A stretch of 64,000 bases of DNA from an uncultured Sphingomonadaceae bacterium (lineage in GTDB: Bacteria; Pseudomonadota; Alphaproteobacteria; Sphingomonadales; Sphingomonadaceae): positions 1,181,501 through 1,245,500 of the forward strand of contig CANLCX010000001.1 of the NCBI GenBank assembly GCA_947489315.1, written 5' to 3'. This document shows positions 62,675 through 64,000 of this stretch, piece by piece; the first letter of the stretch is position 1; every line of letters begins with the position of its first letter. The position numbers and the translations under genes are program-made. The notes below the pieces were generated by a model, which had not been told where the DNA came from, did not search any database, and was given only the letters and a program-made list of their open reading frames with translations.

Positions 62675-63463
62675 TTATCGTGCGCTTCTGATAGCATCAG
62701 AAAGTGATTTTACATAGGCCTTCACATGCGGCGGCGCACCCGCGCCATGTTCCGCGATGATTTCGACAATGGCGGACCCAACAACAACACCATCTGCAAC
62801 GTGCGCGATATCGGCGGCTTGTTCCGGTGTGCGAACACCAAAGCCCACCGCGACCGGTAAGTCTGTTCCGGCTTTCAAGCGCGTGACTGCTTCTTGGATG
62901 CTGGCTTGAGCGGCTTGCTGCAGGCCGGTAATACCCGCGACGGACACATAATAGAGAAAGCCAGAGGCATTTTTCAATATGTCTGGCAGGCGCGCCGCGT
63001 CCGTCGTCGGGGTAGCGAGGCGGATGACAGCGACATCTTTGGCACGCAAACTATCGCCCAAGCTATCATCTTCCTCAACCGGAATATCGACGCAGATCAC
63101 GCCATCTACGCCCGCATCAACACAAGCATCGGCGAACCAGTCGGCCCCGCGGATGGTCATCGGATTGGCATAGCCCATCAGGACAAGCGGAACCGTGGGA
63201 TGGCGCTGGCGAAAAGCGGTGGCAATGTTCAGTAAATCGGCAGTTTTTGTGCCAGCGTTCAGGCTGCGGATATTCGCGGCCTGAATGGCGGGGCCATCGG
63301 CCATCGGGTCGGTGAAAGGCATGCCGAGTTCGATGATATCCGCACCGCCTTCGACAAGCGCGTCAAGGATGGCTCCGGTGTCGGCAGCACTTGGATCGCC
63401 GCCGGTGACGAAGGCGACGAGGGCTGCGCGGTCGGATGGGAAGGCTTTTGAAAGGCGGGTCAT
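62675..63463 (-). CDS. trpA: Tryptophan synthase alpha subunit
   Basis: Cleaves indole-3-glycerol phosphate to indole and passes it to TrpB. The 262-residue protein has LGMPFTDPMADGPAIQAANIR, with the catalytic Glu and Asp (IIELGMPFTDPMADG), and GFGVRTPEQ for phosphate binding. Its ATG overlaps the stop of DUF559 (ATGA), while trpB is displaced further upstream by that gene. Confidence 0.96.
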   Translation of the reverse strand: MTRLSKAFPSDRAALVAFVTGGDPSAADTGAILDALVEGGADIIELGMPFTDPMADGPAIQAANIRSLNAGTKTADLLNIATAFRQRHPTVPLVLMGYANPMTIRGADWFADACVDAGVDGVICVDIPVEEDDSLGDSLRAKDVAVIRLATPTTDAARLPDILKNASGFLYYVSVAGITGLQQAAQASIQEAVTRLKAGTDLPVAVGFGVRTPEQAADIAHVADGVVVGSAIVEIIAEHGAGAPPHVKAYVKSLSDAIRSAR

Positions 63464-63843
63464 AAAGCCCTCTCCCCTTCAGGGGAGAGGGTTGGGAGAG
63501 GGGAAGTCTCGATTATCCCGCTTAACCGCTCCAAAGCACCATCCAAATTTCGCATAATTTCCAAGTTGGTAAATCTTATCACGCTATAACCTTGCTGTTT
63601 CAAATAATCCGTCCTTTTCAGGTCATAGTCTTTCATTTTATCGTGCGTATCGCCGTCAATTTCAATCACTATCATCGGTTCACGGGACGCAAAGTCGGCA
63701 ATGTAAGGGCCGATGACTTTCTGCTTGCGAAACTTTACGCCACTTAGTCTCTTGGCTCTGAGTTCCAGCCACAATTTGGTTTCGGGTTCTGTCGGCTGGC
63801 GCCGCATTTCCTTTGCATATTCGGTTAGGCGAGGGTCACGCAT
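63460..63843 (-). CDS. DUF559 (PD-(D/E)XK nuclease-like) gene in a repeat-bounded cassette
   Basis: A 127-residue DUF559 protein, related to very-short-patch repair-like endonucleases. The core has RRQPTEPETKLWLELRA, KFRKQKVIGPYIADFASR and the putative catalytic VIEIDGDTHD. The last residues PLPTLSPEGERAL arise from the flanking repeat, and the TGA overlaps the trpA ATG. Its Shine-Dalgarno (GAGGGG, seven bases before ATG) is the tail of the other repeat copy. It interrupts the conserved trpB-trpA junction, so it is probably an insertion. Confidence 0.8.
   Translation of the reverse strand: MRDPRLTEYAKEMRRQPTEPETKLWLELRAKRLSGVKFRKQKVIGPYIADFASREPMIVIEIDGDTHDKMKDYDLKRTDYLKQQGYSVIRFTNLEIMRNLDGALERLSGIIETSPLPTLSPEGERAL
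63466..63503 (+). repeat. 38-bp terminal inverted repeat, trpA side of the DUF559 cassette
   Basis: Contains the 10-bp palindrome CCCTCTCCCC-TTCA-GGGGAGAGGG (63468-63491) plus a tail with further G-tracts. It is perfectly complementary to 63851-63888. Four G-runs on the plus strand (63482-63503) fit a G-quadruplex. It overlaps the last codons of DUF559, so the coding end and the repeat are one sequence. Confidence 0.85.
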
Positions 63844-63850
63844 TTAATTC

Positions 63851-63888
63851 CCCCTCTCCCAACCCTCTCCCCTGAAGGGGAGAGGGCT
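63851..63888 (-). repeat. 38-bp terminal inverted repeat, trpB side of the DUF559 cassette
   Basis: The inverted copy of 63466-63503, identical over all 38 bases. On the minus strand it lies 8-45 bases upstream of the DUF559 ATG, and its G-rich end serves as ribosome binding site. The trpB stop is 9 bases beyond its outer end. Confidence 0.85.
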
Positions 63889-63896
63889 ATTTGGTT

Positions 63897-64000
63897 TCAT
63901 ATCTCGGTCCCCAAAGCCTCGGCAACCGTGAAAATATCCTTATCTCCGCGACCGCAGAGATTGGCGAGTATGATCTGATCTTTGTTCATTTTCACTGCTT
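63897..64000 (-). CDS. trpB: Tryptophan synthase beta subunit (C-terminal end, partial)
   Basis: Only the last 33 codons lie in the window. They end [20 protein letters not shown] followed by EALGTEI, the conserved TrpB C-terminus with the GRGDKD loop. TrpB makes tryptophan from indole and serine with PLP. The rest, and trpF expected upstream, is beyond the window edge. Its stop is close to the DUF559 cassette. Confidence 0.93.

Follow-up and report, generated by a model that had tools for sequence, protein, structure and literature searches.

A DUF559 gene between inverted palindromes at the trpB-trpA junction of a Sphingomonadaceae bacterium: a candidate mobile element of operon junctions

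The gene and its repeats between trpB and trpA

Why a single DUF559 gene, enclosed by two inverted copies of one repeat, should lie between trpB and trpA is the question raised by this locus, found in a stretch of 64,000 nucleotides from an uncultured Sphingomonadaceae bacterium (the window). An exact 38-bp inverted repeat had been described here in an initial annotation, and this was confirmed: the copies at 63466-63503 and 63851-63888 have 0 mismatches, and the window contains no third copy even when 3 mismatches are allowed (100 shuffled sequences give a mean of 0.00). By ungapped extension the arms reach 43 nt at 95% complementarity. Either arm contains a 24-nt palindrome (63468-63491 and 63863-63886) of the form CCCTCTCCCC-loop-GGGGAGAGGG, which folds into a 10-11-bp hairpin, and a G-rich half-site, TTGGGAGAGGGG, adjoins the palindrome on the gene side. 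As a 36-base core pattern allowing up to 3 mismatches, the window locus is the sole occurrence in its own genome.

The enclosed reading frame (63460..63843, minus strand) encodes a protein of 127 aa whose only family match is DUF559/MTES_1575 (PF04480, E 1.3e-35; 122 bits vs a curated cut-off of 20.6). Genes of this kind are also called YcjD, MTES_1575 or endonuclease domain-containing protein. The left end, upstream of the gene (63851..63888, minus strand), comprises the palindrome at 63863-63886 and its gene-side half-site, as delimited by sequence and hairpin fold, and makes a G-rich, Shine-Dalgarno-like tract, GAGAGGGGG (63850..63858, minus strand), that stops about 6 nt short of the DUF559 start codon, in agreement with the initial reading. 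The right end is the inverted copy (63466..63503, plus strand), with the palindrome at 63468-63491 and a half-site. It encodes PLPTLSPEGERA at the C-terminus of the protein (...PLPTLSPEGERAL), and the DUF559 TGA overlaps the ATG of trpA (62675..63463, minus strand; PF00290); both of these earlier observations were read again in the sequence. Immediately ahead of the trpA ATG comes the right palindrome's G-arm, GGGGAGAGGGCTTT (63464..63477, minus strand), which is probably the ribosome-binding site of trpA; the right-end G-arm likewise lies just upstream of the next start codon at dnaG and ligA. Beyond the left end is the 3' end of trpB (63897..64000, minus strand), cut by the window edge, with its TGA located at about 63897-63899 from junction comparison.

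Altogether, the window copy is probably, with real room for doubt, a two-ended palindromic element whose sole gene encodes a DUF559 nuclease, of the Vsr/EDxHD-type PD-(D/E)XK fold, that would act on the ends of the element or on its empty site.

Occupied and empty sites

Three full-length DUF559 genes are present in the own genome, each between two codirectional genes, at trpB-trpA (the window), pdhB-lpdA (L001) and prfA-prmC (L003); a fourth match is partial and lies within a long other frame. The other two genes also have flanking inverted repeats (19 nt at 89%; 39 nt at 85%). The prfA-prmC insert joins the beginning of prmC in frame, giving an open frame of 439 aa that reads DUF559-linker-PrmC and in which Pfam detects DUF559 and then PrmC_N. 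The in-frame DUF559-PrmC fusion, through translated palindromes, occupies L003:1390-2706 (plus strand) and is also seen at L073/L163 (G006); in the own genome, PrmC could alternatively start from an ATG that lies inside the frame, beyond the right palindrome. The earlier proposal of a unit with a translation start of its own, ending so that the gene behind it remains translated, fits trpA, dnaG and ligA by sequence; at prmC the arrangement takes the form of an in-frame fusion.

Outside the trp copy, the 24-nt palindrome recurs in the own genome only once, as a gene-less inverted pair that lies in frame within pheS (L009:887-2095, minus strand), in an insert of tens of codons. Its palindromes match those of the trp copy at 24/24 and 23/24 positions, and the PheS domains are still detected by family search. 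The insert is found in one of 20 pheS loci, that of the own genome, and is absent from all 19 relatives examined, as read by eye. In having inverted ends like those of the gene-bearing trp element, it resembles a MITE in the one genome checked. Palindromic DNA in frame within essential genes is known from Rickettsia palindromic elements and in-gene REPs (touched on in PMC3733652); the pheS insert shares this in-frame placement with both and differs from them in that its sibling copies hold a nuclease gene.

In relatives, site labels (dnaG, yqeY, ligA, recN, lpdA, pdhB, prfA, sufB/C, carA/B, purL, trpB) were read from protein sequences, and the family search covered only TrpA, PrmC, PheS, GIY-YIG and DUF559 among neighbour and site identities. 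At trpB-trpA, five of the 30 loci (L039-L068) are clean, four with an ATGA overlap and one with a 2-bp gap. DUF559 with palindromes is present in three (G000, G027, G013), and palindromic DNA without an intact DUF559 gene in three more (G021, G007, G025), of which G021 retains the DUF559 start. The other 19 loci hold other small inserts, mostly differing between species. Several of these fit seamlessly between two ATGA overlaps, the recN-ligA junction being similar, and both junctions appear to be small-gene hot spots. At prfA-prmC, 26 of the 30 loci are empty, two hold DUF559 (G000, G006) and one is unparsed (G011); in G017 (L171) the spacer is 36 bp longer and contains AACCCC...GGGGCTT, bits of both ends, and is probably the remnant of an element since lost.

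The dnaG and ligA loci were nearly all selected for absence of DUF559. The 20 at dnaG, picked as lacking it, comprise seven clean junctions (4-10 bp), six with a GIY-YIG gene and seven with other inserts or unparsed, and DUF559 occupies the same junction in seven other genomes. The 20 at ligA include three clean junctions, two with DUF559 taken as controls, two in which palindromes are paired without a gene (G028, G025) and 13 others. Empty alleles are thus seen in relatives at all four junctions (trpB-trpA, prfA-prmC, dnaG and ligA), and the DUF559 gene, being absent from trpB-trpA of relatives, is not fixed at that site. Of the target duplications suggested as a further check, no clear case was seen: at trpBA, TATGA flanks both sides, but the two genes demand it too, and at dnaG, ligA and prmC no common duplication was seen by eye; none is consistent beyond the gene-required ATGA.

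Ends and palindromes beyond the window

The search for other copies of gene plus repeat, also suggested at the outset, found them in several phyla, beyond sphingomonads. Among relatives, 91 DUF559 matches were obtained in 60 genomes and 60 loci were used, leaving out short, broken and contig-edge matches and some full-length ones; their flank repeat scores reach 105.5, against a control maximum of 16 in 144 random placements. Eighty loci from named genomes are alike, including bins of Nitrospira, Spirochaetes, Chloroflexi, Desulfobacterota and Cyanobacteria. Without L202, which is mostly N around the gene and has a false score, the inverted repeat scores at least 16 in 65/79 and both hairpins are present in 59/79. 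When the loci with enough flank among these 79 and the 60 from relatives were combined, strong flanking inverted repeats (score at least 16) were found at 103 of 133 DUF559 genes vs 2 of 328 other ORFs at the same loci. L202 was also omitted from this test, from the protein-end correlation and from the end-pair matching test given below; L189 (= G023) and L256 (= G044) were dropped from the latter two, and are counted twice in the 103/133, 141-locus, 226-end and codirectionality counts.

A chance repeat is ruled out by the shuffles and the same-locus ORF controls. Hairpins of this size can end or stabilise transcripts, and could accordingly be paired terminators, not mobile in origin; besides the same controls, the gene-less in-frame insertion in pheS and the absence of a terminator T-run beside the window-copy repeats speak against this, and we regard any origin of the repeats in chance or termination as practically negligible.

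The ends have a recurrent anatomy, built on a C-rich/G-rich palindrome that forms a hairpin. The palindrome type occurs on both sides of the gene in 98 of 141 loci, on one side in 30 and on neither in 13. Among 226 ends, 115 have a half-site on the gene side alone, 18 on the outer side alone, 1 on both sides and 92 on neither; a G-rich half-site signal is found in 50 of 2080 random stretches; a G-quadruplex motif is present in 94/226 ends vs 10/2080 random stretches. An outer-side half-site accompanies a palindrome in 17/141 loci, which from its position suggests a gene-less pair adjoining the DUF559 gene, not an end of the gene's own. The left and right ends of one element match each other with a mean score of 22.9, the best of 5000 shuffles giving 13.8 (97 loci), and the two palindromes are identical in 22/97. 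Both neighbours are codirectional with the gene in only 33/60 loci; operon placement is thus common, not universal. The right repeat is open to reading in 74/110 cases for the DUF559 frame and in 132/220 for the other two frames; since those frames offer almost as much open reading, read-through as a designed feature of the gene's frame is not supported.

In a Rickettsiaceae locus of 34% GC (L262), a perfect 56-bp inverted repeat surrounds DUF559, and its ends follow the same plan of palindrome, inner hairpin and G-rich half-site in an AT-rich genome. Eight DUF559 genes with one recurrent, purL-type neighbour have inverted repeats of a different sequence and form a separate subfamily (L090, L093, L097, L104, L108, L112, L113, L122).

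Palindrome numbers follow the gene. Of 198 genomes of the phylum in which the pattern CCCTCTCCN{2,12}GGAGAGGG was counted, 56 have DUF559 at E<=1e-10 and 142 do not; at least 5 palindromes are present in 33 of the former and in 9 of the latter (p 8.8e-15). The association persists when 93 genomes are compared inside their 11 families, where none of 20000 permutations equals the observed value. Among 24 genomes of the same order outside the own family, at least 10 palindromes are found in 6/7 with DUF559 (E<=1e-10) and in 0/17 others. The reversed pattern gives 0-3 counts per genome. There are exceptions on both sides: 23 of the 56 genomes with DUF559 have fewer than 5 palindromes, ten of them none of the pattern, and the own genome has only three, while the nine with at least 5 but no DUF559 match at E<=1e-10 are G077, G085, G108, G111, G113, G144, G202, G206 and G232. 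Of these nine, G085 and G206 do give weak matches to the family. Four palindrome-rich genomes, G113 (64), G232 (82), G202 (31) and G108 (26), have no DUF559 match; either the gene was lost from them or their palindromes have a different driver. Five genomes (G050, G044, G214, G087, G067) contain gene-less inverted pairs, in which some 70-170 bp separate the palindromes and GGTGAGG/CCTCACC-like half-sites lie on the inner sides. In G087 such a pair directly adjoins the DUF559 3' end, and a second end of the gene was not found on its 5' side.

This arrangement resembles that of RAYTs, for which two inverted REPs around the gene, a REP number that follows the gene and fast evolution have been described (Nunvar et al., PMC2817692). 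The likeness between DUF559 elements and REPtrons or REPINs (PMC2817692, PMC3733652) extends to a small gene enclosed by a pair of inverted palindromic repeats, to repeat numbers that follow gene presence, with exceptions, to gene-less inverted pairs, and to a gene evolving faster than its neighbours: at the trpBA, dnaG, ligA and prmC sites, median protein identity is 0.67-0.75 for DUF559 vs 0.88-0.95 for the neighbours. The gap is smaller at the lpdA sites and reversed in the purL group (DUF559 0.82 vs neighbour 0.50), in which the neighbours are probably different genes. The differences are that REPtrons have an HUH tyrosine transposase where a PD-(D/E)XK-fold nuclease is found here, that the DUF559 repeat is of CCCTCTCCC/CCCCTCC type with a G-rich half-site and, in the window copy, lacks a GTAG tag, and that the ends of DUF559 elements, unlike those of REPtrons, are in many cases translated or placed inside operons. 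Because its gene does not encode the transposase, the DUF559 element is REPtron-like but not a REPtron.

The same architecture could be produced if RAYT/IS200-type transposases moved the palindromes, with DUF559 as a passenger between two REP-like repeats. Among 60 genomes searched for Y1_Tnp, the RAYT family, it was matched in 15 of the 42 with any DUF559 match, including the own genome (one match, 2.9e-9). However, no Y1_Tnp match was found in the other 27, which include four palindrome-rich genomes (G044, G049, G050, G054; 50-61 palindromes), and GTAG or CTAC is found in only 26/226 ends including flanks, the GTAG tag being absent from the 38-bp repeat of the window. Movement by such transposases is therefore disfavoured and very improbable.

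Lineages, the nuclease and its possible mode of spread

In a tree of 61 DUF559 proteins from within the order (the 60 relatives' loci and the window copy, with few alignment columns), copies group by site, with 12 label changes where the minimum is 9 and the shuffled mean is 41. Lineages from either side of lpdA are mixed. The copies of G033 (dnaG) and G041 (carAB) look, from their sequences, like separate arrivals at used sites, which the well-supported branches do not force. Since lineages mostly stay at their site, jumps between sites in the order would be rare or old, and frequent hopping is not supported by the tree. These elements thus appear, on sequence comparison, to be old within the order, often lost, perhaps re-spread between alleles, and rarely jumping. 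What had been proposed as a small mobile unit can be called mobile or formerly mobile because of the four empty junctions, the gene-less copies and the presence of the package in several phyla; the site-bound lineages speak against recent hopping. The idea is partly to largely supported, and extends beyond sphingomonads.

The nuclease itself looks, from its codons, to be under purifying selection: median dN/dS is 0.06-0.12 in six computable site groups, with dS saturated in all trpBA pairs, 8/15 dnaG pairs and 3/28 ligA pairs. Columns invariant in 49 sequences include D50, E61, D63, G64 and H67. Protein similarity and end similarity correlate weakly, at a Spearman coefficient of 0.21 that none of 2000 permutations reach (best 0.2007). 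The predicted structure of the 127-aa protein (pLDDT 85.8) has one domain and a low-confidence tail. It matches NGO0050 (3hrl, E 1e-7), which is also the only PDB entry found by sequence search at E<=0.01, the homing endonuclease I-Bth0305I (3r3p, E 8e-4, TM 0.64/0.81) and, weakly, Vsr (1cw0/1vsr, E 0.12-0.16). As a defence gene, DUF559 was rejected, there being no PADLOC match, and so were plasmids or phages as its main home (tblastn matches in 39/72,556 plasmid and 5/50,697 phage records, all below 60% identity).

Purifying selection and old site-bound lineages are also what a vertically inherited housekeeping gene would show, one with a Vsr-like role in mismatch repair around which mobile palindromes with another driver have collected or served as operon spacers; gene-less pairs adjoining DUF559 genes at some loci fit as well. 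Vsr-like action is reported for Caulobacter VsrA, which contains a DUF559 domain (PMC12907096). Compared with Vsr and VsrA as described there, the window-copy protein is alike in its related fold and differs in being encoded between repeats. Yet junctions of close relatives are empty, palindromes pair around DUF559 and almost never around neighbouring ORFs, and the left and right ends match each other, and we consider the housekeeping reading improbable.

More can be said for a free-standing homing endonuclease that cuts a specific empty operon junction and is copied in by repair through flanking homology, with palindromes that are passive and serve translation or mRNA stability. DUF559 lineages are faithful to their sites, their presence is patchy alongside empty alleles, and the structural model points to an EDxHD homing-endonuclease-like fold; six genomes in which GIY-YIG genes occupy the dnaG junction (Pfam on one) add to this. 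I-Bth0305I, an EDxHD enzyme, is alike in its catalytic fold, according to the model match, and in patchy, site-bound presence (PMC3943268). By contrast with that enzyme, the window-copy DUF559 protein is a single domain of 127 aa, has no EDxHD-type extended DNA-binding region beyond the catalytic domain, and is encoded outside an intron and between palindromic ends. Simple homing leaves unexplained why the two ends of an element match, why palindromes and DUF559 are associated genome-wide and why gene-less pairs have like ends. It is rather unlikely on this evidence.

The reading that we prefer is a palindromic element on whose ends or empty site its own nuclease acts. The nuclease would recognise the folded palindrome and half-site ends, or the empty site, and break the DNA; repair would then copy the element in, after the fashion of homing endonucleases, and gene-less pairs could be carried along. 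We infer that the nuclease moves the element. The element would survive in tight operons because its G-arms act as ribosome-binding sites for DUF559 and the next gene, and because the overlap of the DUF559 stop with the next start would keep the operon translated. A more ambitious proposal, which we hold as tentative and somewhat short of probable, is that a lone Vsr/EDxHD nuclease, without a strand-transfer enzyme, recognises the hairpin and G-rich ends and spreads itself and its gene-less relatives by break repair; that ends bearing ribosome-binding sites allow it to live and be translated in essential operons; and that GIY-YIG with another palindrome does likewise, a recurring invention and a new class of transposable element.

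DUF559 is listed in Pfam as of unknown function, and the short GC-rich palindromes scattered in bacterial genomes often have no known driver; linking the two gives both a testable role. If the link is true, REP/REPIN biology would extend from HUH transposases to homing-type nucleases, odd protein tails like PLPTLSPEGERA and in-frame inserts would be explained, and selfish DNA would be seen to settle in essential operons without breaking them. The recurrence of the gene-plus-hairpin package in many bacteria suggests self-spreading DNA of a little-known kind; in open-licence PMC articles, searched for the name DUF559 and judged by title and the start of the abstract, no paper on repeat-bounded DUF559 was found.

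GIY-YIG is another homing-type nuclease family, and the six relatives with such a gene at the dnaG junction are represented by L300, L301, L304, L305, L307 and L308. The L301 protein, the sole one of the six scanned, matches PF01541 (E 7e-19). Whether these genes are a second pairing of palindrome and nuclease is a question that they raise: they are bounded by a different palindromic repeat, of CCGTTCGTGTCGAGCGAAGTCGAGACAC type, and in the five loci read through, the TGA of the GIY-YIG gene overlaps the dnaG start.
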